From the IMG/VR virus record IMGVR_UViG_3300037156_000046, positions 1 through 42,809 of that record: a stretch of 42,809 nt of DNA; one strand, given 5' to 3'. This document shows positions 7,309 to 36,603 of the stretch, one piece after another. The position numbers and the translations under genes are program-made. The notes under the pieces are model-generated. The model ran no database searches. It saw only the letters and a program-made list of their open reading frames with translations, and had not been told where the DNA came from. The DNA comes from a virus. The first letter of the stretch is position 1; each line of letters opens with the position of its first letter.

Positions 7309-7521
7309 TTACGCGACGGGCGGGACGGGAGAATCAGGATGCCGCGCCAGCCATGCGTTCGCCTGCACCAATCCGTACTTCGCAACCGCGTATCCGCCCG
7401 CGATACCCCCCAGCTTCAACGCGTTCAAATCCGTGAACGAGCCGAGCGTCAACGCGGCAAGGAACGCCTGCGCGAACGTCGCACCCGCACGCTCCACAAG
7501 ATCAACGAGAACCTTCTTCAT
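7309..7521 (-). CDS. Holin-like membrane protein (70 aa)
   Basis: ATG 7521 has AGGAG upstream. The protein has a basic start (MKKVLVDLVERAG), a hydrophobic helix (TFAQAFLAALTLGSF) and a glycine-rich second helix (LGGIAGGYAVAKYGL), a pattern found in short actinophage holins. It follows the lysin and another membrane protein, as expected of a lysis block. Confidence 0.68.
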   Translation of the reverse strand: MKKVLVDLVERAGATFAQAFLAALTLGSFTDLNALKLGGIAGGYAVAKYGLVQANAWLARHPDSPVPPVA

Positions 7522-7530
7522 GCGTTTCTC

Positions 7531-7797
7531 CTAACGAGTGAGAATGTGGATGATGATCGCGAACCCGCCAAGCAGCGCGGTAGCGATCAAGGCTGCGGCA
7601 GAAATCCGGAATATGAAATGGACAAGCAGCACAAGCATCAGCGCCTCAACGATCAGAGACACCGGCCACCAATCGGCCTCACCGATCCAGACCGTGCTAC
7701 TGAACGTCGGCCACGGTACGAGTCCCCAATGCGCGGGTAGCTCGAGCGTGAAGAACGCGACCGACCAGACGCACAGCCCCCAAACGAGACGCGCCAA
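7531..7797 (-). CDS. Holin-like membrane protein with three spans (88 aa)
   Basis: Three hydrophobic segments, about residues 5-20, 43-64 and 66-86, with few charges between. TTG 7797 directly abuts the lysin TAG. Adjacent to the lysin, it is the stronger holin candidate; the following gene could be a second holin or an antiholin. The family is not certain. Confidence 0.68.
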   Translation of the reverse strand: MARLVWGLCVWSVAFFTLELPAHWGLVPWPTFSSTVWIGEADWWPVSLIVEALMLVLLVHFIFRISAAALIATALLGGFAIIIHILTR

Positions 7798-8355
7798 CTA
7801 CGGAAGGTAGGAGCGGAAACGAACAGGCTGCCGGTTGTCCTGCGAGACGCGGCAATACTGCGGCCCTGCCTCCTGGCCGTGAGACACCGTGAGCGGGTCG
7901 GGGCCAGCCTCAACAACGATCGCCACATGAAACGCGGCACCAGGACCGTAAAACACAAGGTCGCCAGGCTGCGGACGCCGAACAGGCTTGCCGCGACCGA
8001 TAAGCGTCCCGGTGTAGCCGGTGCCGTTGTAGCTGAGCCCGTTCGGATCCGGTGCGCCCGCGAGCTTGTAGCAGAGCGTGGCGAATCCGGAGCAGTCCGT
8101 GGTGAGCGGCAGTTTCCAGGCGAGAGGCATGGGCCGCGTTTCGGCGTAGTGGATCTTCGGCTCGTTCGCGACTCCCTTGCGCGCCAACTCAACCACCTTG
8201 TCGCGGAGACTCACGGGCGCGGGGGTGTTGTCCAGGACGGTGATGCGTCCGGGTGCGAAGCGCCGCTTTAGCGCGGGCAGGATCGCCTTGACTCGTGCTG
8301 CGGGTGCAGAGCGCACGATGGGATTGCCCTTGGGGCCGAGGATGCGATAGCTCAT
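7798..8355 (-). CDS. Endolysin, NlpC/P60-type cysteine peptidase
   Basis: Cleaves peptidoglycan peptides at the end of infection. The catalytic Cys88 is in TDCSGF, the His143 in FHVAIV, and a third residue, His159, in SHG. PQPGDLVFYG is the usual strand between them. 185 aa. The N-terminal 80 residues contain a phage-type linker region rather than a recognised wall-binding domain. No signal peptide, so release needs a holin; two membrane proteins follow directly. ATG 8355 has AGAGG upstream. Confidence 0.9.
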   Translation of the reverse strand: MSYRILGPKGNPIVRSAPAARVKAILPALKRRFAPGRITVLDNTPAPVSLRDKVVELARKGVANEPKIHYAETRPMPLAWKLPLTTDCSGFATLCYKLAGAPDPNGLSYNGTGYTGTLIGRGKPVRRPQPGDLVFYGPGAAFHVAIVVEAGPDPLTVSHGQEAGPQYCRVSQDNRQPVRFRSYLP

Positions 8356-8358
8356 GCG

Positions 8359-8511
8359 TTACCTCTTTCGTAGTGCGCGGATGGTGACGGGCCACGCTTT
8401 GACGTAATCGCAGCGGGCACAGATGACGGTAGGCGCGGTGCTCGCGGAGTCGCCGCGAGGCTTGAGCACCATCGACGCCTTGACGCCACAGGTGTTACAG
8501 ACGAGGCTCAC
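8359..8511 (-). CDS. Zinc-ribbon microprotein (50 aa)
   Basis: Two CxxC knuckles (VCNTCG and CARCD) about 27 residues apart form a classic zinc ribbon. GTG 8511 overlaps the preceding TGA (GTGA). Sits between SSB and lysin. Confidence 0.72.
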   Translation of the reverse strand: MSLVCNTCGVKASMVLKPRGDSASTAPTVICARCDYVKAWPVTIRALRKR

Positions 8512-8660
8512 GGTGCGAAGTCCGAAACGACTTCGGCTAGACCAAGTGCGAGTGCCTCATCCGTAGAGAAGCCTTCCCACATGCCGCCAACCCCTGTTTC
8601 TGTTTCAAGCGGCGAGTCAGGAAGGGACGATTCCTTGTCCCATTCACTGTCGCCGCTCAA
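8508..8660 (-). CDS. Small acidic protein (50 aa)
   Basis: TTG 8660 lies three bases after the SSB stop; AGGGG precedes it closely. Acidic sequence with WEGFSTDEALALGLAEVVSDF at the end. Continuous with the GTGA chain. No family. Confidence 0.55.
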   Translation of the reverse strand: MSGDSEWDKESSLPDSPLETETGVGGMWEGFSTDEALALGLAEVVSDFAP

Positions 8661-8663
8661 CCC

Positions 8664-9041
8664 CTAAAAGGGAAGGTCTGAATCGTCGGCAGCGAACTCG
8701 CCCGACACCGAGTCGGCACTTCCCGCGTTGCCGCCGCCGATAAAGGTAACCGAGTCCGCGATGATCTCCGCCGACTCACGCTTCTGACCCTCATGCTCAT
8801 ACTGGCGAATCTCGAGTCGTCCCGTGAACGCAGCCTCGCGGCCTTTCGACAGGTATTGCGCAACACTCTCGGCCTGCTTGCCGAACACGGTGACGTTGAT
8901 GAAGTTGCCGACCTCCTGCCACTCGCCGTCGATCTTCTTCCGCGTGTTATAGGCGACGCGGAGGTTGCAGACGGGTGTGCCGGCGGCGTCCCTTAGTTCA
9001 GGATCCCGAGTGAGCCGCGCGACGAGGTTGATGGAATTAAT
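8664..9041 (-). CDS. ssb: Single-stranded DNA-binding protein, apparent ATT start
   Basis: Binds ssDNA during replication and recombination. The OB-fold signatures are clear: NSINLVARLTRDPELR, NLRVAYNT, NFINVTVFGKQAE, and GREAAFTGRLEIRQYE. The C-terminus is acidic and ends DDSDLPF, the usual partner-recruiting tail. The normal SSB N-terminus is MNxINLxG; here it begins at ATT 9041, with AAGGAGG (9048-9054) exactly six bases before it, and the ATT overlaps the upstream TAA (ATTAA). Starting there gives 125 aa. An ATG at 9071 would add ten residues not typical of SSBs and has no such ribosome site. Confidence 0.92.
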   Translation of the reverse strand: MNSINLVARLTRDPELRDAAGTPVCNLRVAYNTRKKIDGEWQEVGNFINVTVFGKQAESVAQYLSKGREAAFTGRLEIRQYEHEGQKRESAEIIADSVTFIGGGNAGSADSVSGEFAADDSDLPF

Positions 9042-9306
9042 GACGAACCTCCTTAACGGTGATACGAACATGGCGGACGCCCCACGCGCGAGCTTTCGCG
9101 CACGAGCGCATCCACAGATCAATGTGCAAGCCTTTGACGGCGCTGCCCGTGTCGAGCGCCACGCCCCGCCCGTAGCCGGGAACATGCAGTCGGCTGTGGA
9201 GCGGGATGATGCGCGGATCTGTGGCGATGGTTCCGGACGCGACGGTGGTGCCTGTTGCGGTGTGCCCGCTGAGGCAGTAGGCGGTTGCGAGTACGACGAG
9301 GATCAC
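9037..9306 (-). CDS. 3D-domain protein (lytic transglycosylase-like)
   Basis: 89 aa, nearly all one 3D domain, named for its three conserved aspartates: TDPRIIPL, ALDTGSAVKG and HIDLWM. This fold is found in MltA-type transglycosylases and resuscitation factors, which cut glycan strands. It is only the domain, with no signal peptide or wall-binding part, so it may act with the lysin or as a virion or host-wall factor. GTG 9306 has GGAG nine bases upstream. A 270-nt structured leader precedes it. Confidence 0.85.
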   Translation of the reverse strand: MILVVLATAYCLSGHTATGTTVASGTIATDPRIIPLHSRLHVPGYGRGVALDTGSAVKGLHIDLWMRSCAKARAWGVRHVRITVKEVRH

Positions 9307-9577
9307 GGCCTCATCTCCTCTCTAAGATGTTCGAACGGCGGCAGCCGAGCCCTGGAGCGCACACGCGGTTGTCGGCAGACCGCCTAGCGCGACTTATCCA
9401 CGAACTACCGCCGTTCGAGCGTTGAAAGTCGTCGGCCTCTTATCTCGCCAGGCCGACCCTGCGCGTCAGCCGCGGCCCGCAGGCGCGCGCTGAACAGTCG
9501 GGATACCCCATCGCCGTAAGGCAGCCCGACCGGCTCATACCCGGCGGGGGATCGCCGTTAGGCTGCCCCGCCGGGGA
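9307..9577 (-). ncRNA. Structured leader / candidate cis-regulatory RNA
   Basis: Noncoding and exceptionally foldable on the minus strand. Hairpin A (9540-9575) has a 10-bp stem of alternating C and G runs. Hairpin B (9497-9530) has a different stem, but both loops carry the same core, GCC-TwAC-GGC-GAT. Further stems are 9458-9483 (CCTGCG/CGCAGG), 9431-9457 (GTCGGCCT/AGGCCGAC, 8 bp) and a long-range 11-bp pair, 9331-9341 with 9408-9418. The paired loops with unlike stems suggest selection on RNA structure. It ends near the ribosome site of the 3D-domain gene, so riboswitch, leader attenuator or stable ncRNA are all possible. It does not visibly match a consensus I can recall. Confidence 0.6.
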
Positions 9578-10087
9578 CTAGACGAGCTCGCGGAACCGGG
9601 CGAGGAAACGCTCCTCAGCCTCAGCCGGTAGCCACGGCTCAATGCGATAATCCAAGTACGCGTCACCCGGCACTCGCAACACGTTCGGCATCAAATCCCG
9701 CTGCTCCGAACGCAGCAGCACGTCGTCGGCGAACTTGACGGCGGGCGGGTACGGGTAGACGAGGCCGAACTTCTCGGCGATGACGCGCTCTAGTTGCTGT
9801 TCGAACTCACGGTAGAACGCGCCAAACTCGGGATCGCGCTTGATCGGCCTGGACACGTCAGACAGGTAAGCCTCTGACGCGTCGTGCATGAGTGCCGTGA
9901 GCCTCCACTTTGCCGCGACAATGTTGCTACACAGGACGCTGTGCTGGCTCACGGAATAGAAGGTGCGCGTGTGCCCAGTGAAGCGGCAAATGTTGGCGAG
10001 GGCATGAGCGATGTCCTCAAGGCATATTGCGTCGGCGTTCGGCGCGAGCGGGTTGATGACCGCTCCGCTGAACGTGACAATGTTCAT
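9578..10087 (-). CDS. HD-domain phosphohydrolase, YfbR-like 5'-nucleotidase
   Basis: 169 aa. Marks: SGAVINPLAPNADAI, EDIAHALANICRFTGHT, FYSVSQHS, and the HD motif LMHDASEAYLSDV, followed by a distal D in KFADD. Such enzymes dephosphorylate deoxynucleoside monophosphates. In a phage this would shape the dNMP pool, either as salvage or to deplete a nucleotide before incorporation of a modified one. ATG 10087 overlaps the preceding TGA (ATGA). Confidence 0.9.
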   Translation of the reverse strand: MNIVTFSGAVINPLAPNADAICLEDIAHALANICRFTGHTRTFYSVSQHSVLCSNIVAAKWRLTALMHDASEAYLSDVSRPIKRDPEFGAFYREFEQQLERVIAEKFGLVYPYPPAVKFADDVLLRSEQRDLMPNVLRVPGDAYLDYRIEPWLPAEAEERFLARFRELV

Positions 10088-10392
10088 TTCTCCTGCTCGA
10101 ACAGCACGAGCGCGATGAGCGCATAGACGGCAATGTCCCGGAACGAATCCTCAGCCGACTCGTTCTCAAGCTTGCCGTTCGCGGCGAGCGCCTGCAACCG
10201 TCGCACCTTGTCATTGAGGCGGATCATCGCGCCCTGCCAGCCAGGCACGCCCCATTCGGCGGACGCGCGCACGTTGGCGAAGGGATCGTCGCCGCGCCCG
10301 TAGTCCCCCTGCTTTTTGTCGTGGAGCGCGCCTGTCTCGGCGAGTAGTTCGTGGAAACGTGCGCTGTTCGGGTGCCGCTGCGGAGGCGTCAC
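10084..10392 (-). CDS. DUF1599 / Nmad1-like protein
   Basis: 102 aa with the spacing of this small helical family: KKQGDYGRGDDPFANVR, IRLNDKVRRLQAL, then ESAEDSFRDIAVYALIAL. Related domains appear in phage gene sets for nucleotide modification and resemble the MazG fold. GTG 10392 (GTGA overlap). Directly followed by the HD nucleotidase, so a joint nucleotide-pool role is reasonable. Confidence 0.75.
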   Translation of the reverse strand: MTPPQRHPNSARFHELLAETGALHDKKQGDYGRGDDPFANVRASAEWGVPGWQGAMIRLNDKVRRLQALAANGKLENESAEDSFRDIAVYALIALVLFEQEK

Positions 10393-10565
10393 GCGATGAT
10401 CTCGTAAATGGCCGCGATGTCGTCAAGGCCAAGGTGCAACGGACGAGGCGATGCAGCCGACCACTCGGCGCCGGTCAATTCGCTACCACGCTTCGTCACT
10501 GTGAAGTCCTTGCACTCCAACTCGACCTGTGCGCCACTCTTGTAGATGATGAGCACCTTGCTCAC
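10389..10565 (-). CDS. Small beta-rich protein (58 aa)
   Basis: GTG 10565 overlaps the preceding stop (GTGA). Short strands at the N-terminus (KVLIIYKSGAQVELECKDFTV) suggest a small beta sheet, then LDDIAAIYEIIA helix. Not recognised. Confidence 0.62.
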   Translation of the reverse strand: MSKVLIIYKSGAQVELECKDFTVTKRGSELTGAEWSAASPRPLHLGLDDIAAIYEIIA

Positions 10566-10819
10566 GCGAACGCCATCCGTGGAACGCGCGCCACAACAAT
10601 CCGCGCCTCACCATCCGACATCGAAGACACCCGCAGAATGTCCGCGCGAGCCTGCCGCATCTCCTCCCACAGAAACCGCAGCCGCGCATCAAGCCCCGCG
10701 CGCTCGTCGGCGAGGTCATGGCAGAACACGTAGATGCCTTGCTGCCGGCGGTATATGTCGGCGCGTTCGGCGACGAGGCGTTCGATGTCGTACCGGATTT
10801 CGGTTACGCGGCGAGCCAT
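10562..10819 (-). CDS. Helical / coiled-coil protein (85 aa)
   Basis: Mostly charged helix with heptad character (EIRYDIERLVAERADIYRRQ), then a second helix. ATG 10819 overlaps the preceding gene by 16 bases. No family recognised. Confidence 0.62.
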   Translation of the reverse strand: MARRVTEIRYDIERLVAERADIYRRQQGIYVFCHDLADERAGLDARLRFLWEEMRQARADILRVSSMSDGEARIVVARVPRMAFA

Positions 10820-11106
10820 TGTTCGATGTCGACTCCTTCGCCTTCGCAGGCGTGGCTTCGGAACCAGGCGATTCCCCGGTCGGGCGTCTTAGCCTCGTGC
10901 GTGTAGCGCTCCCCGCAGAATCCGCAGGCGATGGTTGGCCGCGCGGCGTCTAGGTGTGCGAGCGCGTAGATGACATCTTCGACCGTCTCAACGATGTGCG
11001 CGGGCCGTACGATGTCGACCCATTCGCCTTCTGTCTTGTAAAAGGCGAACGGGTGGGATTCCGTTACTAATGATGCCGCGACGTTGGGGTCTGTCAAATG
11101 GCTCAT
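10804..11106 (-). CDS. Zinc-finger protein (100 aa)
   Basis: ATG 11106 gives an ATGA overlap. Residues 60-90 hold CGFCGERYTHE and FRSHAC, a C-C-H-C arrangement. The N-terminal part looks mixed alpha/beta. Ends EQWLAA, the last three residues matching the ClpX degron. Function unknown. Confidence 0.68.
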   Translation of the reverse strand: MSHLTDPNVAASLVTESHPFAFYKTEGEWVDIVRPAHIVETVEDVIYALAHLDAARPTIACGFCGERYTHEAKTPDRGIAWFRSHACEGEGVDIEQWLAA

Positions 11107-11252
11107 GCGTGTGTCGGGAAGAAGATGCCGCCACACGTGCACCCGCCGCCTTTGAGTATTGGGCATTTGGGATGGTGAATCGTCACGGTCGGCCGCATCG
11201 GTTCAGCGGCTATGCGCTTCATCGCTACGCGGATGTCGTCGGCAACGCTCAC
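11103..11252 (-). CDS. Cysteine-containing microprotein (49 aa)
   Basis: GTG 11252 with GTGA overlap. C-terminal KCPILKGGGCTCGG could bind a metal with a nearby histidine pair (IHHPK). No family. Confidence 0.62.
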   Translation of the reverse strand: MSVADDIRVAMKRIAAEPMRPTVTIHHPKCPILKGGGCTCGGIFFPTHA

Positions 11253-11524
11253 GCGTTCGCCATTGCCGCAAGTACGTCGCCGTGGCAGCGTTGCGGCGCG
11301 CACCAACACCCGAGCACCTTGCCGCGAAGCTCCGGTAACGCAGCCATGAGATGAGGCTGCGTCTTGATCCATTCGGCGTAGGCATCGACGGCTTCGTCGC
11401 GCGTGCCGACGACGAACGTGGCGAGTGTTCCTTTGCCGACTAGGTGCGTGAACGGGTTGCCCCATTTGGATGGTCGGCCGATGTAGATGTCATGCGGGTC
11501 GCGCTTGCAATGGACGACGGTCAC
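11249..11524 (-). CDS. DUF4326 family protein
   Basis: 91 aa, clearly this family: IYIGRPSKWGNPF, EAVDAYAEWI, ELRGKVLGCWCAPQRCHGDVL. DUF4326 proteins are widespread in phages and bacteria; the fixed Cys/His set near the end (CWCAP..CHG) suggests a metal or catalytic site. Biochemical role unknown. GTG 11524 gives a GTGA overlap. Confidence 0.9.
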   Translation of the reverse strand: MTVVHCKRDPHDIYIGRPSKWGNPFTHLVGKGTLATFVVGTRDEAVDAYAEWIKTQPHLMAALPELRGKVLGCWCAPQRCHGDVLAAMANA

Positions 11525-11691
11525 GCCCACTTCACCCCACTATCCCTGAACGCCGATAGCGCGCTGTTCGCGCGGTTTGCTGCGGCGATCATCGCGCTAG
11601 CAGAGTCGATGTCAGGCCAATGGTCGTGACGCCAGCACGCCCACTCGTAGTCACTCTCGGCCTCGGCTAATGCGATGTGTAGTTCACTCAT
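11521..11691 (-). CDS. Small helical protein (56 aa)
   Basis: ATG 11691 (ATGA overlap). Two helices with aromatic residues (DYEWACWRHDHW). Not recognised. Confidence 0.6.
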   Translation of the reverse strand: MSELHIALAEAESDYEWACWRHDHWPDIDSASAMIAAANRANSALSAFRDSGVKWA

Positions 11692-11996
11692 GCGGCTTCG
11701 TCCATGCGTAGCTGGTTGTCCTCGGGCGCAGGTTCGTACGCCTCAATTTCGGCGCGTACGTCCTCGTACCGGTGCGTAACTCTCACAAGTGACGTGTTGC
11801 GCCGCTCGTCCCAGCGCCCCTGAGCGCCCGCGTACAGCCTCCTAGCGCCCGTGTCGATGATCGAAGCGTCGAGGATCGCCTTGAGCTCGTGCAGGATGGT
11901 GGCCTCGTCGGGATACATGGTTGCGAGGTTGCGCATGGTGTTGCGTTCGGCTTCCGAGTAGTCGGCTGTGAGGCCACGCCAGGTGATCGGCGTCAC
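11688..11996 (-). CDS. Hypothetical protein (102 aa)
   Basis: GTG 11996, GTGA overlap. Helical, with ITWRGLTADYSEAERNTMRNL at the start and an acidic tail. No motif that I recognise; ends MDEAA. Confidence 0.62.
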   Translation of the reverse strand: MTPITWRGLTADYSEAERNTMRNLATMYPDEATILHELKAILDASIIDTGARRLYAGAQGRWDERRNTSLVRVTHRYEDVRAEIEAYEPAPEDNQLRMDEAA

Positions 11997-12157
11997 GCGC
12001 GTTTCACTATCATCGGGCAGCCAGGCTTGAGACAGCCACTACCGCCCGCTTTGCCACATCCCTGGCAGACCGTCGCGAGCAACGCGCGAAGCGATGGTCT
12101 AGCAGCATCGTATTGCGGCATTGACACGTAAACACCATCCTCGAGCATCCGCCTCAC
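11993..12157 (-). CDS. Zinc-knuckle microprotein (54 aa)
   Basis: Four cysteines (CQGCGKAGGSGCLKPGC) form a compact zinc knuckle. GTG 12157 and both ends overlap neighbours as GTGA. Confidence 0.7.
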   Translation of the reverse strand: MRRMLEDGVYVSMPQYDAARPSLRALLATVCQGCGKAGGSGCLKPGCPMIVKRA

Positions 12158-12396
12158 GCCGACGGCTCCCAATGCTCCACAAACGACAGAGCGGAGTCGC
12201 CGTAGCCCTCACGGAATCCTGGCGGCACGTTCGCCGTGTGGTGGACGACGAATTGCTGCTCGTCACGGAACCCTCCCGCAGGATCAGGGATGCGCTCCAC
12301 GCGAGACGTAAGCCGCGTAATCGTGGTCGCTTCGCGTGTGTGTTTGTTCGTCCACTGGACTCCGGGACGGATGGCCGCGAGTGCAAACGCACTCAT
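12154..12396 (-). CDS. Hypothetical protein (80 aa)
   Basis: ATG 12396 overlaps the preceding TGA (ATGA). Beta-rich core (REATTITRLTSRVERI, DEQQFVVHHTA). No family recognised. Confidence 0.62.
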   Translation of the reverse strand: MSAFALAAIRPGVQWTNKHTREATTITRLTSRVERIPDPAGGFRDEQQFVVHHTANVPPGFREGYGDSALSFVEHWEPSA

Positions 12397-12563
12397 ACCG
12401 GCAACGTCTCTGTCCGTCCGCAGCGCTCGCATCTATGAACACTGAGCTCGTAGACGGGGTTTCCGAGGTTTCCGTACCACGAATCGTCACTCTCGCGAAT
12501 GAAGTTGTGGCCGCGAAGCAGGCAGCGAAGGGCCTCGAACAGCGATGGGCTTACCTTGCTCAT
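12393..12563 (-). CDS. DUF1660-like zinc protein (56 aa)
   Basis: RCLLRGHNFIRES plus HRCERCGRTE gives the C-H-CxxC pattern of short prophage proteins, much like the gene at 7134-7307. ATG 12563 (ATGA overlap). Confidence 0.66.
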   Translation of the reverse strand: MSKVSPSLFEALRCLLRGHNFIRESDDSWYGNLGNPVYELSVHRCERCGRTETLPV

Positions 12564-13210
12564 GCCGCAACCAGCACGTCGCGCGGAAGAACAATCCGAC
12601 GCGGCATGAACGAGCTCAGCACATCCAACGCCAGCGACACCGGGCGCCGCTCCACCCCCACATCCCACCGCTCCACGATCGCCCGCACAAGCACCGACCG
12701 CGTACCCGGCTTCTGAGACACCAACGCGCGAGGCTGCGCAATCGCCTTCACAACCTCATGGTTGCCGCCACGATCCCACGTAGCTAGCGGCGCGTCTTGT
12801 CCTTTCGCGTTACGTGCCACGTCGTAGCGGATGATCTCACCGCCCGCATCGAAGCCGACGCTACGCGGCACAGCCTCGAAATAGACGCCGCCCCGGTTGA
12901 TCAGGTCACGGTTCAGAATCTCCGACATGAGATAACGCTCCCGGAGATGCCAGTAGTGGCGCGGACCCATCCCGTGCAGCTTGGTCAACGAGACGAGCAG
13001 TTGCGCGTACGTGGAGTTGCAGCGGATCCGCCCGTTGTCGTCCGGGATGAGGCAGTCTTTGGGGCAGCCGGCGTGCCACGCTTGCGGCATGGTGAGCATT
13101 TTGGAGCCGGGTTCGAAGCGGCCTCCTGCGTCTCCGCGTTGCAACGTTTCGCCTACGTCTCGTAGGCTGCGGAGTGTGGTGATGAGCATGTCGCGGCGTG
13201 CGTCGTTCAT
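12560..13210 (-). CDS. Hypothetical early protein (216 aa)
   Basis: ATG 13210 has AGGAGG six bases upstream, so it begins a translation unit after the iteron region. Contains CPKDCL and a lone Cys, a segment KLHGMGPRHYWHLRERYL, and a helical C-terminus ending VLVAA. Its place after the primase-helicase and origin-like repeats suggests a replication role, but the family is not recognised. Confidence 0.7.
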   Translation of the reverse strand: MNDARRDMLITTLRSLRDVGETLQRGDAGGRFEPGSKMLTMPQAWHAGCPKDCLIPDDNGRIRCNSTYAQLLVSLTKLHGMGPRHYWHLRERYLMSEILNRDLINRGGVYFEAVPRSVGFDAGGEIIRYDVARNAKGQDAPLATWDRGGNHEVVKAIAQPRALVSQKPGTRSVLVRAIVERWDVGVERRPVSLALDVLSSFMPRRIVLPRDVLVAA

Positions 13211-13373
13211 GCTGCCTCCTGTGGCGACGGTTTTGCACGATGTAGAAAGGGCGTGAGGGTGCGGCTTAGGGCGCACCCGGTGGGGGGTTTCAAAGGGGGG
13301 AGGACTGCAAGTGTTCGGGTGTTCGGCTCTATATATAGGCGAACACTTGCGCGAACACTTGGGGGCGAACACA
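13211..13373. promoter_or_regulatory. Iteron-like repeat region, possible origin or operator
   Basis: Five copies of a 7-bp CGAACAC element: GTGTTCG at 13311-13317 and 13319-13325, and CGAACAC at 13340-13346, 13352-13358 and 13366-13372. The two orientations flank a short AT-rich core, CTATATATAG (13329-13338), in otherwise GC-rich sequence. A hairpin GGGTGCG...CGCACCC follows near 13258-13279. This gap separates the primase-helicase gene from the next gene. Such a layout suits a replication origin bound by an initiator, or a repressor operator. Confidence 0.5.
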
Positions 13374-14942
13374 TCACGCGGCCAACTTCCCCTGCATCGC
13401 GTCCGCCCGACGCCACTCTGCCCGCTTGCCGATCATCTGCCGATCGACCCGCCCGTACGCAAGCAACTCGTTAAGCAGGTTCGACGCGCGAGCGCGAGAC
13501 ATGCCCGCAGCGTCCGAGATGTCGTACACGTTCTGCCACTCGTTAGTTACGTGGTCGTAGAGTTCGTCGGTCGCCCTACGGCGCTCCACCTTCTCGAACC
13601 CCTCGCCGCGCGTCCACTCAAGCAGCCACTCCTCCCCCATCTTCGGCAACTCAGGATCGCGCGTCTTCGCCCACGACAAGCGCGAACGGTTCCCCTTGAT
13701 CCGCTCGAACACCACAGCCGTATCGGCGGGCCGCTGAAACGCCTTGTAGCCGGACGCGTCACCAAGCCGGCCGACCTTCTGGCCCTTCTGCGCCTCGTTC
13801 GCATGGAACCCGACGACGACAGCCGTGCGCGGATTCCGCACCCGTAGCCCGTCAAGGAACGAGATCACCGTCCGCACGTTGCGCATACCCTCAGAGAGCT
13901 CGTCGGCAATCAGCTTGTACCACGGGTCGATGACGATGATGTGGTAGTCCTCCATGCTGTTTTCGATCATCTCCCGGTGTTCTGCGTTCCGGTCGACTTC
14001 GAGGCCGTCAGGGAGGCTTACAACGTCAAACAGGGGGCTTCCTGTGTCGAAGCGCGCAGCCTTGAGCGTGCCAAGCAGGAGTTCGCGTGGCATCTCGAGG
14101 TCGATATAGAGGGCGCGGATTCCGCCGCGTCCGCGCAAGCCGAGGAAGTCGCGGCCGTGGACGGCGCAGGCGGTCGCCTCAGCCATGAACGTGGTCTTGC
14201 CGTGGCCGATGGGGCCGATGACGTGTGTGCGTTGTCCGCCGCGGAATAGTGCGCCGAGGTAGTTGCGGGTTTCGTCGCGCGGCCCAACGCTGTCCGCGAA
14301 GTCGCCGAACGACTGAATGGGTAGGCGCGGGGGTCCGACCGGCTTGGCGGTGTCCTCGACGGTGACGAATGTTGCGGCGAACCGGGCCGGGTCGCGTTTC
14401 CACACGGTTGTCAGGTCGTCGCCATCGTTCGGCCAAGTGCCGCGCTTCACTGTGGCGACACGACAGAGCGCCTTCGCCCATTTCGCCGCAGCGGTATTGC
14501 CGGGCTCATCGTTATCGAACAGCACGAGCACGGTTTTCCCGGCGAAGCGCGCCGCGTCGGGGCGATGGTTTACGCCGGGGATCGCCACGCACGGGAGGCC
14601 GAGGCTTGTCCCGGTGATCGCGTCCGGCTCGCCCTCAACGATGACGAGGTAGTCACCTTCGACCATCTCGGGTGACGGGAACAGGTCGCGCGGATGATCG
14701 GGGAGCGCCCGCAGCTTCGGCCCGTTGCCGCGCCGTGCCGGGTTCGGGGCGTAGCGCAAGAGATTGACGATCGCGCCGGCTGCGTTGCGGACGGGGATGG
14801 TGACGTTGGGGCCGTCGATGCCGATGCCGAGTTCTGTGATGGCCGCGTGTGTCCAGCCGCGTAGTGTGGTGAGTCGTCCGATGAGGTTGTCGTCGGCGAG
14901 TAGTGCGGCGTGGAATGTTGCTGCGTCATCGGTGAGACTCAT
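13374..14942 (-). CDS. Bifunctional Toprim primase / RecA-fold helicase
   Basis: 522 aa. An N-terminal Toprim region has VEGEPDA (102-108), LFDNDEPG (141-148) and DGDDL (173-177), the metal-binding set of phage primases. A P-loop helicase follows with Walker A GPIGHGKTT (243-251), a RALYIDLEM strand and IIVIDPWY as Walker B; it is of the RepA/AAA_25 type. The C-terminus has a winged-helix-like VYDISDAAGMSRARASNLLNEL. No CHC2 zinc finger is present, so priming may rely on host primase or be lost. ATG 14942 (ATGA overlap). Ends KLAA, next to the iteron region. Confidence 0.92.
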   Translation of the reverse strand: MSLTDDAATFHAALLADDNLIGRLTTLRGWTHAAITELGIGIDGPNVTIPVRNAAGAIVNLLRYAPNPARRGNGPKLRALPDHPRDLFPSPEMVEGDYLVIVEGEPDAITGTSLGLPCVAIPGVNHRPDAARFAGKTVLVLFDNDEPGNTAAAKWAKALCRVATVKRGTWPNDGDDLTTVWKRDPARFAATFVTVEDTAKPVGPPRLPIQSFGDFADSVGPRDETRNYLGALFRGGQRTHVIGPIGHGKTTFMAEATACAVHGRDFLGLRGRGGIRALYIDLEMPRELLLGTLKAARFDTGSPLFDVVSLPDGLEVDRNAEHREMIENSMEDYHIIVIDPWYKLIADELSEGMRNVRTVISFLDGLRVRNPRTAVVVGFHANEAQKGQKVGRLGDASGYKAFQRPADTAVVFERIKGNRSRLSWAKTRDPELPKMGEEWLLEWTRGEGFEKVERRRATDELYDHVTNEWQNVYDISDAAGMSRARASNLLNELLAYGRVDRQMIGKRAEWRRADAMQGKLAA

Positions 14943-18364: not shown

Positions 18365-18447
18365 GGGCGGGCGCCGAAGTGGGAGAGTCGGGGCGGGCTG
18401 TAAACCCGTTGCCTCGTGCTGAGTGGGTTCGAATCCCTCCCCGCCCA
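18365..18447 (+). tRNA. tRNA-Tyr (anticodon GTA)
   Basis: An 83-nt class II tRNA. The acceptor stem is GGGCGGG/CCCGCCC, the D stem CCGA/TCGG, the anticodon stem GCGGG/CCCGT with GTA at 18400-18402, followed by a long variable arm, then a T arm with loop TTCGAAT. No CCA is encoded. Position 8 is C instead of the usual T and the T stem has one T-T mismatch, so it may be diverged. It is antisense to the flanking operon and about 340 bp from the integrase gene, so it may mark the attachment site. Confidence 0.85.
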
Positions 18448-18453: not shown

Positions 18454-18789
18454 TCACGCTTCACCCGGCGCAGGGCCAGTCCCTACGAAAGTGAACGAGA
18501 CTCCCGGCGAACTCTGCATCCAGGTATCGCCCAAGCAGGTTGTCTCGAAACGATCGCAGCCAATGACGATGATCCGCCCCTCTCTTCCATCGGGAAGCAC
18601 GAGCGAGGCTTCGCCTAGTTCCATGTCGAGGGGCGCGTCTAAACTGCCAGCCCACGAGCGAAGTCCGGGTATCCACTGGGTATCGCTAATCGGGATGCGA
18701 TCTTGCTTAAGTCGATAGGTGGCGCGAACCGCAACCGTCTCACCTTCCCGTACGAGCGTTGCGGCGCCGCTGTAGTCCGGCGCCCTCAT
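18454..18789 (-). CDS. Hypothetical protein (111 aa)
   Basis: ATG 18789 overlaps the integrase TGA (ATGA). Beta-rich: DYSGAATLVREGETVAVRATY, later LPDGREGRIIVIG. Family not recognised. It ends seven bases from the tRNA-Tyr. Confidence 0.62.
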   Translation of the reverse strand: MRAPDYSGAATLVREGETVAVRATYRLKQDRIPISDTQWIPGLRSWAGSLDAPLDMELGEASLVLPDGREGRIIVIGCDRFETTCLGDTWMQSSPGVSFTFVGTGPAPGEA

Positions 18790-19796
18790 GCCGCAGCCCT
18801 CTCCGGTTTCGCCCACGACAACCCACGTACCGGCTCCATCGCCGTAGCCTTCTCCAACTTCCGAAGATAGATCGCCGTCGTCGCAATAGACGAGTGACCC
18901 AGTAACTCCTGTAGGCCCCTCAGTTCCCCCGGATGCTGCTCCAAGTAGAACACCGCGAACGCCGCCCGGAGGGCGTGTACGTGCGTCACAACGCCCGCCT
19001 TAGCCCCCAGGGCGCGCACGATCTCCCAGATGCAACGGTCGTCACGCTCGCGCTTCCCGGCGAGGATGTCGGGCGCATAGAACGCGTACGGTGCCGGCGG
19101 TACAAGGAAGTCCGTCTGCTTGACGATCGCCCCTGCGGCTACCGCCCCGTCAATGAGCGTGCGGAGCTCGTCGGGTGCGGGCTTCCAGATGACCTTGTTG
19201 CCCTTCTCCCGAAACCTCAGTTGCCCCGCCTTCGTGTCATAGTCGCGTAGCCGGAGCCGTGAGACGGCGCGACGACGCGGCCCCATGTAGGCGAGGATGC
19301 CGATACAGCATCGGTGTGTCCACACTTCCCGGTCGGCGGTACCAGCTAGTGCGTCCAGGGCATCCGCAGCGGCGAACAGCTTGCGCACGTCGTCGGCGGA
19401 AACGCTCGTCACGTCGAGGTCCTCGGCGCGGATACGCTTGGTGCGGGCGAGCCTGTCCATCGGGTTCGCCTTGACCTTCTGATTTAGGTAGCACCACTTG
19501 AGCCAAGACGCGAGCACCGCTTCGGCGTGGGCGATCGTGCCGCGAGCGTTACCCTTCTTCGCCCCGAGGAACCGGCGGATGTTGTCCGTCTTGATTTCGG
19601 ACACGTCGCAGTCGACGGGGAGCGTGTCGCCGAACGCGTAGAGGACTCGCCTGTAAGTGCTGAGTGTGCGCTCCGACCATCCCCGGCGCAGGCCGTCATC
19701 GAGGAAGTCGTCCATGGCGCGATATGGGCTTATCATGCCGCGGATTATCGTCTCGAAGGGTTCCTGTGGTGAGGGCGCGGCCTGCCGGTTCCTCAT
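18786..19796 (-). CDS. Tyrosine-type integrase
   Basis: 336 aa from ATG 19796 (ATGA overlap). Core-binding helices occupy residues 20-120. The catalytic domain has Arg in GPRRRAVSRLRL (about 174-176), a Lys in EKGNK (198-201), HALR (His274, Arg277), LGHSS (His301) and the nucleophile Tyr310 in TAIYLR. It would join phage and host attachment sites. It is inside the leftward early operon, so it shares the regulated early promoter. No excisionase is recognised nearby. Confidence 0.93.
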   Translation of the reverse strand: MRNRQAAPSPQEPFETIIRGMISPYRAMDDFLDDGLRRGWSERTLSTYRRVLYAFGDTLPVDCDVSEIKTDNIRRFLGAKKGNARGTIAHAEAVLASWLKWCYLNQKVKANPMDRLARTKRIRAEDLDVTSVSADDVRKLFAAADALDALAGTADREVWTHRCCIGILAYMGPRRRAVSRLRLRDYDTKAGQLRFREKGNKVIWKPAPDELRTLIDGAVAAGAIVKQTDFLVPPAPYAFYAPDILAGKRERDDRCIWEIVRALGAKAGVVTHVHALRAAFAVFYLEQHPGELRGLQELLGHSSIATTAIYLRKLEKATAMEPVRGLSWAKPERAAA

Positions 19797-19993
19797 GCGT
19801 CCACCTCGCGCAGCCACATCTCTATGACCTGATAGCCCTCGTTGTGGCACGGGGCAAAGGACATCTGGAATGGTTCCCAACCGTCGAACCCAGCCTCCAG
19901 GGGGAAACCACGGTGCGCGTCCGGCCCATGCAACACGGATATAGGCACGGATATGGTGGCCCACCGGATGCGCGCGCGACCATTGGCTCTCAT
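19793..19993 (-). CDS. Hypothetical protein (66 aa)
   Basis: ATG 19993 with ATGA overlaps at both ends. Beta-rich with aromatic residues (FDGWEPFQMSF) and a Cys-His pair. Located just before the integrase, where an excisionase can occur, but no winged-helix pattern is evident. Confidence 0.6.
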   Translation of the reverse strand: MRANGRARIRWATISVPISVLHGPDAHRGFPLEAGFDGWEPFQMSFAPCHNEGYQVIEMWLREVDA

Positions 19994-22935: not shown

Positions 22936-22947
22936 AAGTCCGGACTT
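22936..22947. promoter_or_regulatory. Operator 1, palindrome over the leftward -10
   Basis: AAGTCCGGACTT is a perfect 12-bp palindrome overlapping the -10 and start of the leftward promoter; its core is repeated at 22976-22983. Binding here would block leftward transcription. Confidence 0.65.
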
Positions 22948-22972
22948 TACACGGACACCCTGTATGTGTCAA
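22944..22972 (-). promoter_or_regulatory. Main leftward early promoter
   Basis: Read leftward: TTGACA (22967-22972), 17-bp spacer, TAAAGT (22944-22949), a near-consensus sigma70-type promoter. Predicted transcripts start about 22937 and run into the gene at 22887 and the whole early chain. Both GTCCGGAC sites abut it, so it should be repressible. Confidence 0.75.
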
Positions 22973-22975
22973 GAT

Positions 22976-22983
22976 GTCCGGAC
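22976..22983. promoter_or_regulatory. Operator 2, palindrome beside the regulator ATG
   Basis: GTCCGGAC lies just upstream of the leftward -35 and one base before the regulator ATG (22985). It could let the regulator control both its own gene and the leftward promoter. Confidence 0.6.
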
Positions 22984-22984
22984 T

Positions 22985-28430: not shown

Positions 28431-29734
28431 CAGGTCACGATCCAGGAGTTGTCCGCGACGAGGCTGATCCCCATTCTCTTGCCGATGTGCGGTGCGAGCT
28501 TGTCCGCGATCTGTTTGTGCCCTTTCGAGTTCGGGTGCGGTGGCCCCTTGCTCGTATAGGTGAGGTGCTGGTCGGCAAGCGCATAGATGTCGCAGTTACC
28601 CGCCCCGGCGGGGGATGTCTCGTTGCCGGTGCCCTGGAAGACTTCCGTTGTGTCGATGAAGTGGTCGGCGTCGATCAGGTTCGTGATCGCTGTTTTCCAG
28701 GCTGCGTCGTAGGTGGTCATGTCGCCCTCAATGCCGTGTGGTGCGACGAGGTTGCCAACAGCGAGAATCAGCGCATCCGGATACTCGGTGAGCGCAGCTT
28801 GGATCGCGACTGTCGCAGCCGCTTGAACCTGTGCGGCTGTGAAGGCGAGGTCGTTCGAGGACGACTGGAAAACGATGCACGTCCCCTCACCAGACGGCTT
28901 CCGTACCATCAGCGGCAGATCGTTCTGCACGTTGCCTAGATACGGCAGCGTGCCGTCACCTGCGGTCGCGCAGACGCCTCGGCCGCCCATACAGATCCCT
29001 TGCGAGACATCCCAGAGTCCGAGCCGCCAGCCAAGCTGGAACACGAACGAGCCGTGCGGGTACGCGACGTTCTCCGTTGTCAGAATCGTGTCGGCGTAGT
29101 AGCCCTCGGGAATCGAATCGCCAATCCAGATCAACTGTCCACTCGCCTGCAAGGCGGGCGAATAAAGAAAGTCCGTGCTGGCGTGCTTAATACCGACCAG
29201 ACCCGCAGTCCCCACATCAATCATCAGCATGATTCGATACGGCGAACCAGCTGGAGCGGCTGCGCCATGATTGACCTTGAAGTGCTGCGTGTCGCCGGTG
29301 CTGGAGGTGATTGTCGGAGCAAGGGCGACGGGCTGCTCGTTCACCCACAACCAGTAGCGGATGCCGTTATTCGCCACGACGAACTCCCACAACTGGCCCG
29401 TGTAGTCGAACTCGTAACAGACGATCCGATCTCCCCTAGAGCGTGGAGACAACGACACATCTCCCGCCCATCCGTAAGGCTTCACAGGCTCATAGTCGCC
29501 GTGACCAGACGGAAGAAAAATCGCACTGTTTGACGAGCGAAGCTCCAGTGGGCTACGGAGCGCAATCGTCCCGCTAAGCCCAGTTGTAGTTCCCCCAGCG
29601 GTGATTGTCGGGGGAGACGTCATCACCGGGGAGTAAATGCCGTCCTCGGCGATGCGGTTGCGGATCGTTGGGTTGCCCGCGAACGCTGTCCGCTGCTTGA
29701 GCGGCCGAATGTAGCCGCCTACGAGGCTCGTCAT
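28430..29734 (-). CDS. Tail protein with SGNH/GDSL hydrolase domain (434 aa)
   Basis: An N-terminal beta domain of about 190 residues precedes an SGNH fold: block I LIWIGDSIPEGYY, a block II-type glycine (GGRGV), block III QSSSND, and block V HPNSKGHKQIADKL with the catalytic Asp/His region. Such tail esterases de-acylate host surface glycans during adsorption. Two bases separate its ATG from the preceding stop. Confidence 0.87.
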   Translation of the reverse strand: MTSLVGGYIRPLKQRTAFAGNPTIRNRIAEDGIYSPVMTSPPTITAGGTTTGLSGTIALRSPLELRSSNSAIFLPSGHGDYEPVKPYGWAGDVSLSPRSRGDRIVCYEFDYTGQLWEFVVANNGIRYWLWVNEQPVALAPTITSSTGDTQHFKVNHGAAAPAGSPYRIMLMIDVGTAGLVGIKHASTDFLYSPALQASGQLIWIGDSIPEGYYADTILTTENVAYPHGSFVFQLGWRLGLWDVSQGICMGGRGVCATAGDGTLPYLGNVQNDLPLMVRKPSGEGTCIVFQSSSNDLAFTAAQVQAAATVAIQAALTEYPDALILAVGNLVAPHGIEGDMTTYDAAWKTAITNLIDADHFIDTTEVFQGTGNETSPAGAGNCDIYALADQHLTYTSKGPPHPNSKGHKQIADKLAPHIGKRMGISLVADNSWIVT

Positions 29735-29735
29735 C

Positions 29736-29987
29736 TCAAGCCACCTTCCCGGTGATGATGTCGATGAGATTGCCGGAACCGTCTAGCTTGAACCAGACGT
29801 ACTCCGTGCCCGATGCGAGCGTCGGGGACGGGTCGGTATCACTCACGATGGGACGCGAACCGCCGAGCGCAGCCTGAACCGGCGCAGTCTGGAGCGTCCC
29901 GTCCGCGTTCGCGAACGACTCCAACCACGCAACCAGTTTCGTGCCCCATGAGTCCTTATCTCCGCCAATGGTCGGCAACGCCGTCAT
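29736..29987 (-). CDS. Small tail-associated protein (83 aa)
   Basis: ATG 29987 abuts the upstream TAG. Contains WGTKLVAWLESFANADGTLQ, reminiscent of the N-terminal attachment segments of tail fibres, and a short beta end (YVWFKLDGSGNLIDI). Possibly a hinge or adaptor for the SGNH protein. Confidence 0.6.
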   Translation of the reverse strand: MTALPTIGGDKDSWGTKLVAWLESFANADGTLQTAPVQAALGGSRPIVSDTDPSPTLASGTEYVWFKLDGSGNLIDIITGKVA

Positions 29988-30426: not shown

Positions 30427-33400
30427 CTACGGGCGAATGTCGGACTGCTTGATGTGGCCGCGCCGCGAACCCATGATCACGGCCGCGCTAACCGACTCCA
30501 GGACGGACGGATGCTTCAACGCCGCCGCGAGCTCGTCATGCGAACCCACATAGTTCGGCGCGTTGACCACGATGTTGATAGCGCCACCGCCGCCACGTCC
30601 GGCAGCCACATCGGCCGGCTGCACACGCTCGCCCGCGTGCAAGTACGCCAAGCCGTCCCGGAGGATGTCGCCGCCCGAAGCCATCTTCGGAATCGGGTTC
30701 AGCAGGAAGTAGCCTGCCGCTCCGCCTAGTCCCGCCGTCACGCTCGACTGGCCGGGCGCGATAGGCGTCTGCCATGCGATCGACTGGGCCGTCGCGGAAA
30801 CCTTCGCCGCATCCTTCCCGTCGCCCAACGCGGCCAACGCGGCAGCCTCGTCAAGCATCACCTGTGCGAGCGCCTGCGTGGCCGTACCAAGGTTGCCCAT
30901 GTCATCCTGGAACTGTCCGCCCGAACTGAGCAGTACCTCGCCCGTCGTCAGGCCGTATTGCGCCAGGATGCCCGGAAGGTCCCCGATGTAGGCGGTGCCC
31001 GCAGCGATCCCCTGGCCGAGCGCATTGAGTTGGTTCGTCATCGCGTGTTCCGCGTCCGTCCGCTGCTGCTGGTACTGCGTCACCGCGTTCGCATAGTTCT
31101 GATCCGCCGTCTTGCGTTCAGCCGTCGCATCGATCGACAACTCGTTCTCATCGATCATGCGTTGCGCCTGATCCACCGCAGCCTTATCCGCGGCGATGGC
31201 TGCCGGTGTCCCCTTCGGCCCGAAGATGTCGCGCGTCGCACCCGTCGAGATGTCCACGATGTGCTCGATGAGCGCACCGTTCATGTCGTCCGCTAGCGTC
31301 TGCTGTGCGCTCGCCAGACCGTCCGTAAGGCTCTTAGCGGTGTCGGCAGCCTGCATGTCCGCGTACTGCTGTTCCTTCGGCGTGAGCAGCCCGCCCTGCG
31401 AGAACTTCGGCCCGAGCGTGTTAGTGATGTAGTCCTGTGTCGCGGCCGAGAACGCGGTTTGCACGTCCGAGATGATGTTCGAGAACGCCGACGTGATCGC
31501 CTGCTTGTCGGTGGTGATCGCGGCGGCAGCGGCGTCGGTTACCGCCTTGATCTGCGCCTTGAGGTTCGCAGCGACAGTCTTGGTGAACGAGTCGTCCGCC
31601 TTCGTGATCTCGTTAGCTACCGACTGCGCCTTCGCCATCTGCCCGTGCGCCTTGAGGTCGGCTTCCTCTGTCTTGAGTAGCGAGTCGAGCGTGTCGAGAT
31701 GCGCCTGAGTAGCGCTGTCCCCGAACGTCTGCTGCGCCGCGCGGATCTTGGCTTCGAGCGCGTCGGGAATCTTGTAAAGCGGAGGCTTCTTCGGCTTAGC
31801 TGCCGCGCTCGAACTCGCACCGAACGAGACAGGGGCCATGCCGCCGCCCGCTGTGATAGCGCCACTAGCGCCCATGATTGACGAGATGTAGTTCTGCGTC
31901 TCGGACGGCATGGTGCCGCCGTTCTTCAAGTAGTTGTCTACGTTGCCGGAACCCCAGTTGTAGGCGGCAAGCGCGAGCGGCCAAGACTTGTATTTCGCGT
32001 AGAGGCCCGCCATCATCTGCGCGGCCTTCGGGAGCGCCTGCGCCGGGTTGTAGGGGTTGAACGTCGTACCCGACCCCATCGTGCCCGGCATGAACTGAGC
32101 GATTCCTGACGCGCCCGAAGCGTTATGTGCGGCCGGGTTGAAGCCGGACTCCTGCTTGATCTGCGCGAGGAACAGCGACGAGGGGACGCCGTACTTACTT
32201 GCCGCCTGCGCGGCCATGTTCTTTAGCGGGTCACTGCCAGGGATATAGCTCGCCCCGAAGCTACCAGGGAGATAGCTCGTCTGAGCCGCACTCGTGTTCT
32301 TCTCAGCAGCCGGCGCGAGCAACGAACCCTCGCCCAGAGCGCCACGAATCGCGTTACCCAATGCCCCGCTCTGTGTCGCTAGTCCACCGAGGAGCGGTAC
32401 GTGGCCGAGGAATCCGATCCCAGCCTTGTTGAGAACGGACTGCCCGGCAGATGATGTAGGGATGATGTCGAGCGCGATGACGAGCGCGAGAGGTCCGAGC
32501 GCCTTGAGTTTTCCGAGCGTCCCGAGCAGTAGACTCGACTCCGACGATGCCGCTCCGAGCGCGCTCGCGCCAGCAAACGCGATCATCTCTGTCGTCCAGC
32601 CCAGGACTATCGGCGCGAACTTCAACGCGACGAGCAGTTCTAGCGTCTTCTCGAAGCCGCCCGTCGCCTTGTCGATGTCATCGAAAGCCGTCCGGCCCGT
32701 CTTGAGAATCCCGGTCAGATCACCAACCGCCGTCTTTACGTCATCGGTAACCGTCTTCTGATTCTTCGACTTCGAGATCCAGTCCTCGATCGCCTTCGCA
32801 ATATGGTTTACCTCCGGGAGAAGCCCCTGTCCGACCTTCTCCTCAAGATCGTGGACGGTCGCGCCGAGTTGCATCGTCGCGGTAGTCGAATCCTTCGCCT
32901 GGCCAGCCCAACGCTGCTGCGCCTGCGTAAGCGCCGTCTCAACCGACTCACCCTTCTGCACGACGATGCCGTACCGCTGCAAAGCCGTCGTCTTACCGTC
33001 GATCGCCTTACCGACCGCCGTCGCCGCCGTCTGGAGCGAGATGCCCTTACCGCGCGCCAGATCCTCCACAAGCCCCATGTACGTCACGGCGTCCGTCGCG
33101 TTGCCCGTGATCAGCGTTAGCTGCTTGAGCCCGCCGAGAATGTCCGTGTTCGTGTAGCCGAGCTTCGCGCCACCATCGGCGAGCTTCGCGATGACCCCCG
33201 TGTACGCGGTGAGGTTGTCGCCCGAGTGAACGATCGCGCCGTCGAGTGACCGGAGCGCAACGTTGTAGTCTTGTGCGCCCTTAACGGCCGTCTTGATGCC
33301 CATAGCGACGCCAGCACCGACAATGAAGCCCCCGCTACCGAGCGCGAGCGCAGCCCCGAACTTGCCGAACGAGCCGGTGGCCTCTAGTGCACCACGCGAG

Positions 33401-33741
33401 AACTTTGCCGTCTCGGTTGTCGCAAGCGCCGTCTCGCGGGCAGACGAGCGTACCATCGCATTAGACGCGAGGACTTCCAGGCCAAGCCGCTTCTGTGCCT
33501 TCGCCGCAAGGTCGAGTGCGGCAACCTGCTCCGCCGAGCCAGCCTCCGCCGATGCCGCGACGCGCCCGTACTCGGCCGCGAGCGCCTGGAGCCGAACCTT
33601 CTGCGCCTCCGTACGCTCAATGTTCTTCGCAGCAACCGACTCGACGGTGACACCGAACGTCTTGGCGTTCGCGGATGCCTCTGCGAAACCAGCGGAGTTG
33701 TAGTCGGTCGCAATTTCGATTCCGAGCCTTGGCCCTGCCAT
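30427..33741 (-). CDS. Tape measure protein with SLT domain (1104 aa)
   Basis: Sets tail length and aids DNA entry. Long helical regions and several hydrophobic stretches (GAALALGSGGFIVGAGVAMG). Near the middle is a soluble lytic transglycosylase-like domain: QIKQESGFNPAAH (catalytic Glu), SGIAQFMPGT and LALAAYNWGSGNV. It would cut peptidoglycan during entry. It has an alanine-rich C-terminal half. ATG 33741, just after the chaperone extension. Confidence 0.93.
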   Translation of the reverse strand: MAGPRLGIEIATDYNSAGFAEASANAKTFGVTVESVAAKNIERTEAQKVRLQALAAEYGRVAASAEAGSAEQVAALDLAAKAQKRLGLEVLASNAMVRSSARETALATTETAKFSRGALEATGSFGKFGAALALGSGGFIVGAGVAMGIKTAVKGAQDYNVALRSLDGAIVHSGDNLTAYTGVIAKLADGGAKLGYTNTDILGGLKQLTLITGNATDAVTYMGLVEDLARGKGISLQTAATAVGKAIDGKTTALQRYGIVVQKGESVETALTQAQQRWAGQAKDSTTATMQLGATVHDLEEKVGQGLLPEVNHIAKAIEDWISKSKNQKTVTDDVKTAVGDLTGILKTGRTAFDDIDKATGGFEKTLELLVALKFAPIVLGWTTEMIAFAGASALGAASSESSLLLGTLGKLKALGPLALVIALDIIPTSSAGQSVLNKAGIGFLGHVPLLGGLATQSGALGNAIRGALGEGSLLAPAAEKNTSAAQTSYLPGSFGASYIPGSDPLKNMAAQAASKYGVPSSLFLAQIKQESGFNPAAHNASGASGIAQFMPGTMGSGTTFNPYNPAQALPKAAQMMAGLYAKYKSWPLALAAYNWGSGNVDNYLKNGGTMPSETQNYISSIMGASGAITAGGGMAPVSFGASSSAAAKPKKPPLYKIPDALEAKIRAAQQTFGDSATQAHLDTLDSLLKTEEADLKAHGQMAKAQSVANEITKADDSFTKTVAANLKAQIKAVTDAAAAAITTDKQAITSAFSNIISDVQTAFSAATQDYITNTLGPKFSQGGLLTPKEQQYADMQAADTAKSLTDGLASAQQTLADDMNGALIEHIVDISTGATRDIFGPKGTPAAIAADKAAVDQAQRMIDENELSIDATAERKTADQNYANAVTQYQQQRTDAEHAMTNQLNALGQGIAAGTAYIGDLPGILAQYGLTTGEVLLSSGGQFQDDMGNLGTATQALAQVMLDEAAALAALGDGKDAAKVSATAQSIAWQTPIAPGQSSVTAGLGGAAGYFLLNPIPKMASGGDILRDGLAYLHAGERVQPADVAAGRGGGGAINIVVNAPNYVGSHDELAAALKHPSVLESVSAAVIMGSRRGHIKQSDIRP

Positions 33742-33744
33742 CGA

Positions 33745-33993
33745 CTACCCCCCTTCGCTGGTATTCGCCTTCACGAACTCATGCAGCCCGAGAATCTGGC
33801 CGAACGTCATGCCTGCCATGTCTCCGCGCCGAACGCCGCACCAATGGCCCATCCACGCCGCCCAACAATCCGCCGGGTCGTAACGGGTGCCCAAACGAAC
33901 GCCGAGCACCCTCTCGACGCGTACCGCTAAGTCTCCGAAGCCTCCGTCACGTCGTCCTCCTTGGTAGGTCCCTCCTCGGCCTCCTTCGGCGCG
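33745..33993 (-). CDS. Tail chaperone extension in the -1 frame
   Basis: A second reading frame overlaps the end of the first chaperone gene and lies -1 relative to it. It is open from just after a stop at about 33994 to TAG 33745, coding GDLAVRVERVLGVRLGTRYD and FGQILGLHEFV, then the tape measure begins. This is the place of the lambda G/GT programmed frameshift. No standard X XXY YYZ heptamer is evident in the overlap, so the shift site or an independent start is unresolved. Confidence 0.6.
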   Translation of the reverse strand, partial: RAEGGRGGTYQGGRRDGGFGDLAVRVERVLGVRLGTRYDPADCWAAWMGHWCGVRRGDMAGMTFGQILGLHEFVKANTSEGG

Positions 33994-34307: not shown

Positions 34308-34379
34308 GGCGATTCCTTTCGTTCGTCAAACGTGGTAATGTCCCAGGCGTCAGGGTTCCCAACGTAAGGAGGCGTCGAG

Positions 34380-34625: not shown

Positions 34626-34652
34626 CAAGCTCTCGCCTCTCGTCGCAACGTT

Positions 34653-34680: not shown

Positions 34681-34686
34681 CGGGCG

Positions 34687-36579: not shown

Positions 36580-36603
36580 GCGCCCTCCTTTCGAGGGCAC
36601 AAA

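Follow-up and report, generated by a model that had tools for sequence, protein, structure and literature searches.

The DNA analysed here, referred to below as the window, is a virus record of 42,809 bases, and the gap of interest occupies positions 9307-9577 between two genes on the minus strand. The gene upstream of the gap encodes a deoxyribonucleoside 5'-monophosphate phosphatase (dNMP-phosphatase; 9578-10087; PHROG 318, E = 2.9e-60), whose stop codon ends at 9578. The gene downstream encodes an 89-residue 3D-domain protein (9037-9306; PF06725, E = 1.3e-15, above the cut-off) and starts with GTG at 9306, so that the gap adjoins a 3D-domain gene just as the original prediction had it. An SSB gene follows on the same strand (8664-9041, with the start assigned by eye; the PF00436 match spans 8664-9185, E = 5.2e-26). 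Within 9037-9055 the apparent ATT start of SSB (9041-9039) overlaps, again by eye, the TAA stop of the 3D gene (9039-9037); AAGGAGG stands 6 nt ahead of this ATT, which is a rare start codon. Given this overlap of the two genes, the leader in the gap heads a 3D-SSB unit and not a lone wall gene. Downstream of SSB, at 7531-8355, a hydrophobic 88-residue protein adjoins an endolysin-like protein, and the two possibly form a lysis cassette; by its motifs the latter looks like an endolysin of the NlpC/P60 type.

Matches in PHROGs were obtained for 18 of the 30 proteins compared, and all 18 are encoded on the minus strand, as are 28 of the 30 tested. One of them is an integrase (18786-19964; PHROG 1), which indicates that the phage is probably temperate. 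A tRNA-Tyr gene lies near the integrase at 18365-18447; its 3' part had no match in the genome collection when one position was left free, and no second copy of it of at least 14 nt is present in the window. Most matches to the large terminase (TerL) are actinobacteriophage records (1,295 of 1,987 are named Mycobacterium phage, including ten of the ten matches listed), making a GC-rich actinobacterial host plausible on sequence similarity. A search with the head protease returned a single match, L145, a contig of 9,439 nt assembled from a different metagenome; it is 100% identical to positions 31252-40690, and this virus has thus been assembled twice. The identity ends short of the leader.

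We compared the codon content of the gap with that of 17 checked genes of the same phage, each left out of the reference in turn. These genes scored 0.13 per codon on average (lowest value −0.02) and their wrong frames averaged −0.32. The three minus-strand frames of the gap scored −0.15, −0.17 and −0.18 per codon and contain 2, 4 and 3 stop codons, respectively. These scores and stops rule out an overlooked coding frame on that strand, and the gap is noncoding there, as originally predicted. The plus-strand frames scored −0.05 (with one stop), −0.22 and −0.25, the first of these being less clear, and the open reading frames of at least 30 residues that touch the gap are either short or overlap other genes. 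The accompanying statement that noncoding space is rare in this phage received only a rough check, namely a coding fraction of 79% from a crude gene caller that overlooked some real genes, including the 3D gene.

Folding of the minus-strand RNA of 9307-9577 gave a predicted free energy of −145.9 kcal/mol (z = −3.85, with none of 200 shuffles equally low) and 95 base pairs, compared with −126.8 kcal/mol (z = −2.22, 5 of 200 shuffles) and 78 pairs for the plus strand. When the leader with its exact borders was placed among 157 other 271-nt minus-strand windows tiled along the DNA, with 20 shuffles each, it reached −144.1 kcal/mol and z = −3.72 and ranked first of the 158 by energy and second by z. 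The one tiled minus-strand window with a lower z lies at 29540-29810 (z = −4.95). In a scan of 1,138 windows of 150 nt on both strands, the lowest energy was found at 9451-9600, and the minus-strand 150-nt windows that lie mostly inside the gap had ordinary z-scores (−2.8, −0.6 and −2.0), which suggests that the stability of the leader stems partly from long pairing and from G+C content. Hairpins 2 and 5 described below each have one imperfect position, a G-U wobble in the minus-strand RNA that would become an A-C mismatch in plus-strand RNA. Together these folding models favour a structure formed by minus-strand RNA over one formed by the plus strand or by DNA.

The minus-strand fold comprises five stem-loops and a small hairpin over a ribosome-binding site, and the description of the leader as highly structured was upheld. 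Hairpin 1 (9540-9575), the first of the twin hairpins, starts 2 nt past the phosphatase stop codon and has a 10-bp outer stem and an inner GCC-UAAC-GGC element, with pair probabilities of 0.97-1.0; it is the fourth best minus-strand stem by score, and strong stems occur elsewhere too. Hairpin 2 (9496-9531), its twin, starts about 46 nt past the same stop codon at a spacing of 7-8 nt from hairpin 1 and is predicted to fold into a 7-bp outer stem with an inner UGCCUUA/UGGGGUA stem, an eighth outer pair having a probability of 0.045 in context. The minimum free energy (MFE) structure then contains the GC-rich hairpin 3 (9466-9493) and hairpin 4 (9431-9457; 8 bp, 11-nt loop, z = −2.85), and from hairpin 1 to hairpin 4 no interval between successive stem-loops exceeds 8 nt. 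Hairpin 5 (9331-9418) is a long-range stem that encloses 60 nt, with pair probabilities of 0.90-1.0. Its arms (9405-9418 and 9331-9344) pair over 14 positions, 13 by Watson-Crick pairs and one by a G-U wobble; the long-range pair originally predicted is thus present, but it is longer than the 11 bp claimed, with 93% complementarity over its 14 positions. Finally, a 6-bp hairpin in the MFE fold (9312-9329) covers AGGAG, the ribosome-binding site for the 3D gene.

Hairpins 1 and 2 are related in sequence by a direct repeat of 24 nt on the minus strand. The first copy (9551-9574) carries the core GCCTAACGGCGAT at 9551-9563 and the second (9510-9533) carries GCCTTACGGCGAT at 9510-9522; the copies are 83% identical, lie 41 nt apart and span the 5' arm and core of their respective hairpins. 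Only one of 500 dinucleotide shuffles of the leader matched the score of this repeat, and in the whole window, at spacings of 20-100, the score is reached at three places, the other two being within a 1,104-residue gene. The window contains the core in exact form only twice. A REP-like repeat spread through the phage was discarded as a candidate, since core matches with up to three mismatches (28) are about as numerous as expected by chance (26.6).

Comparison of the twin stems by eye, in the register of the repeat, revealed two stem columns that differ between the hairpins: where one goes from C to U, its partner in the 3' arm goes from G to A, and where the other goes from G to C, its partner goes from C to G. 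A further G-C pair of hairpin 1 corresponds to G-U in hairpin 2. The compensatory-looking variation within one molecule that had been proposed is therefore visible at two pairs; two such changes in two sequences of a single molecule give genuine though slender support for stem pairing. Given the core, the outer stem of hairpin 1 is among the best 0.03%, and that of hairpin 2 among the best 0.5%, of 12,200 random control positions. The inner structures differ, however. The inner GCC/GGC stem has a probability in context of 0.996-1.0 in hairpin 1 and of 0.0 in hairpin 2, where forcing it would cost about 6 kcal/mol and UGCCUUA/UGGGGUA pairs instead, and in an alignment of the twins the paired positions fall in different registers. 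The original picture of twin hairpins with the same core thus holds for the sequence common to both but not for their inner structure.

Relatives of the flanking genes were sought in several collections. The 3D protein was found at two loci in IMG/VR, and the same two contigs were recovered with a two-row alignment. The closest relative found (L002, 65% identity) lacks such a leader; only about 60 nt separate its 3D gene from a divergent frame. In the phage collection, 3D relatives occur in 160 records, all below 60% identity and mostly from Bacillus phages, whereas in the genome collection none of 37 pattern stretches was confirmed, a search that reaches genomes sharing exact short peptides. 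SSB matched 1,462 records in the phage collection, and homologue searches with the primase and SSB proteins returned no loci. For the phosphatase, 186 loci were found, of which 80 were kept (identity at most 53%) and 77 evaluated. The next frame usually follows immediately in these relatives (median gap −4 nt, 77 loci), and only 3 of the 77 have a gap of at least 150 nt or no frame found behind the phosphatase. In none of the 77 evaluated loci was a homologous leader found behind the phosphatase gene, and none of the 80 contains the core followed by GAT.

Searches with the nucleotide sequence gave a similar picture. The leader with its flanks matched eight phage records, none of them inside the leader, and the leader alone matched five phage records at E of about 3 and 79 plasmid records, the best 10 of the 79 covering 15-22% of the query with no E value below 0.07. 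The core pattern occurs in 61 stretches of IMG/VR when the phage's own loci (L001 and L148) are left out. In one of these, L093, the stem is better than that of hairpin 2 and weaker than that of hairpin 1, but it lies inside a 528-residue frame that we take to be an ssRNA-phage replicase. The complete twin pattern was found in four stretches (L149 to L152), none of them convincing. L149 and L150 were rejected as twin elements because both are within reading frames, and L152 occupies a gap that separates listed frames. At 5566-5701 of L151, another phage-like contig, three AACGCCTNACGGCA.. repeats are found between two longer frames; two of them have stems of 6-7 pairs, and the core resembles that of the twins. 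In our judgement this is probably a family of local repeats whose overlap with the twin pattern is due to chance. No syntenic relative of the leader region was found in these searches, the output of which may lack near records, and the element is thus known within them from this phage alone.

What function might such a leader have? The original prediction had mentioned riboswitches of the ydaO (c-di-AMP) type, and control of the 3D gene by this or another metabolite riboswitch would agree with the position of the leader ahead of that gene, possibly a cell-wall gene as for ydaO, and with the hairpin over its ribosome-binding site. The suggestion did not survive a comparison with Rfam. The ydaO family (RF00379) was not matched by cmscan at the gathering score, nor on 9250-9650 at E values up to 10, and no more than two Rfam matches appear at that limit, both of them inside the phosphatase gene and scoring far under the gathering threshold of their family. 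The ydaO and other riboswitches were rejected accordingly as lacking a covariance-model match to any Rfam family. Moreover, pair probabilities in the twin and long-range stems are near 1 except at end pairs, with no clear switch between structures, and the closest 3D relative found lacks the leader. We regard a riboswitch as highly improbable, and the proposed tie to wall genes is unsupported as well, given that relative and the 3D-SSB unit that the leader heads here. A separate trans-acting small RNA, made from the gap by its own transcription or by processing, would suit a noncoding region with a compact and stable fold over 271 nt, but neither a promoter-like site nor a U-tract terminator was found in the gap and no Rfam family matches it, making this very unlikely. 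The inverted repeats and direct repeat within a noncoding gap could also belong to an element that works as DNA, such as a replication origin or a recombination or packaging site. This appears even less probable than a small RNA: the strand-specific wobbles and z-scores point to minus-strand RNA, no turn in GC skew is evident near 9 kb, the integrase is located elsewhere (18.8-20.0 kb), and a better candidate for an origin or operator, the repeated GCGAACACTTG, adjoins a primase-like gene. That candidate, at 13307-13375, consists of two direct copies of GCGAACACTTG, a third at 82% and one inverted copy. Alternatively, the gap might have no regulatory role and be a spacer, possibly the remnant of a lost gene or of a local duplication, whose good folding reflects its GC-richness. 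The unremarkable z-scores of the 150-nt windows are consistent with this, as is the leader's lack of a tie to the phosphatase gene in 77 relatives or to the 3D gene in L002, but the 271-nt z-score is the second lowest of 158 and both repeat copies sit in good stems, and we consider this explanation unlikely.

The twin hairpins might instead be a cis-acting RNA recognition element that sets transcription or translation of the 3D-SSB unit, either as a protein-free antiterminator of the put type or as a site at which a phage or host protein recognises the shared core. Their adjacency, their conserved asymmetric core and the fact that their diverged stems still pair argue for such an element, but the core folds differently in the two hairpins and the pattern scans yielded no convincing second case, which leaves it possible but doubtful. 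To our knowledge, noncoding RNA has been poorly charted in phages other than coliphages. The nearest twin-hairpin phage element that we know of is the put RNA of HK022. Autoregulated SSB leaders also exist, for example that of T4 gene 32, and the structured leader here is likewise upstream of an SSB-coding unit, although SSB is the second gene of that unit. The put RNAs are described as about 70 nt long with two stem-loops, with putR about 270 nt beyond its start site (PMC9378689). The likeness to our element, in which both hairpins fit into the 80 nt of 9496-9575, is that of two neighbouring stem-loops in about 70-80 nt of a temperate phage; it is one of size and layout and does not imply antitermination here. 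According to the same source, put elements sit behind early promoters and not between internal genes. For put the similarity is between putL and putR, whereas here it is between two hairpins of one element. The only upstream promoter-like sites on the minus strand in 7500-13500, near 11.1 and 11.6 kb, are both 1.5-2 kb from the gap, and two such sites are about what chance would give (mean 1.2). A put-like element of a putative actinobacterial phage is in our view distinctly unlikely; its duplicated 15-nt core (CWGCCUWACGGCGAU), kept by compensatory stem changes, would be the recognition site through which it targets host RNA polymerase or is bound by a phage protein, perhaps SSB, and so controls the 3D-SSB unit. 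If the twin element did act on RNA polymerase or bind a protein, it would offer a short testable RNA part from a phage that has no close relative in our searches save one identical fragment.

The interpretation we prefer, with a rough probability of 0.42, is that the gap is a structured spacer in the minus-strand transcript that combines a terminator-like 5' half with a 5' leader of the 3D-SSB unit. Transcription would run through the gap. In the 5' half, hairpins 1 to 3 would constitute, from 2 nt past the phosphatase stop codon onward, a GC-rich hairpin cluster without a U-tract that might slow or partly terminate RNA polymerase and protect the 3' end of the upstream phosphatase message. The 3' half, with hairpins 4 and 5 and the hairpin over the ribosome-binding site, looks in the predicted fold like a translation-limiting leader and may repress translation of the 3D-SSB unit. 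A scan for a sigma-70-like promoter from which transcription of this unit could restart found none within the gap.

A classical Rho-independent terminator was rejected because no U-tract directly follows a stem; no U-tract terminator is present in the gap, and neither of the two terminator-like sites in 7500-13500 falls there. Hairpins 1 and 2 nevertheless show the spacing described for terminators of a different kind, at most 80 nt from the stop codon and less than 15 nt from each other. Across 13 bacterial genomes, two-thirds of predicted termination units were clusters with gaps of less than 15 nt, 98% of correctly identified termination sites were within 80 nt of a stop codon, and a poly-A/U trail was inessential, as one study reports (PMC8355165). 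For mycobacteria, a review describes terminators without a poly-U tail and states that intrinsic terminators are scarce and Rho dominant, and it also cites a paper whose title states that a U-tract is required (PMC12288462). The gap thus resembles hairpin-cluster or tail-less ('I-shaped') intrinsic terminators, as these sources characterize them, in having at least two GC-rich hairpins less than 80 nt from the stop codon, gaps of less than 15 nt and no poly-U. It differs from the cluster terminators of GC-rich bacteria in that its two hairpins share a 24-nt sequence, and termination here is a prediction only. A terminator needs neither such a shared sequence nor the compensatory upkeep of stems, which counts against terminator-plus-leader, as do the absence of a U-tract terminator and of a restart promoter from the scan of the gap and the strong stems seen elsewhere on the minus strand. 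Even so, 9307-9577 is probably an ordinary terminator plus leader, with a small chance of something new, and a terminator cluster would be an ordinary feature of a GC-rich genome.

Two other structures in the window are worth recording. Just past the major capsid gene, a 15-bp hairpin followed by TTTGT (36603-36637) is the top stem by score on the minus strand and likely a terminator. At 22937-22984, an operator-like palindrome, AGTCCGGAC...GTCCGGACT, lies near a possible switch of gene direction.
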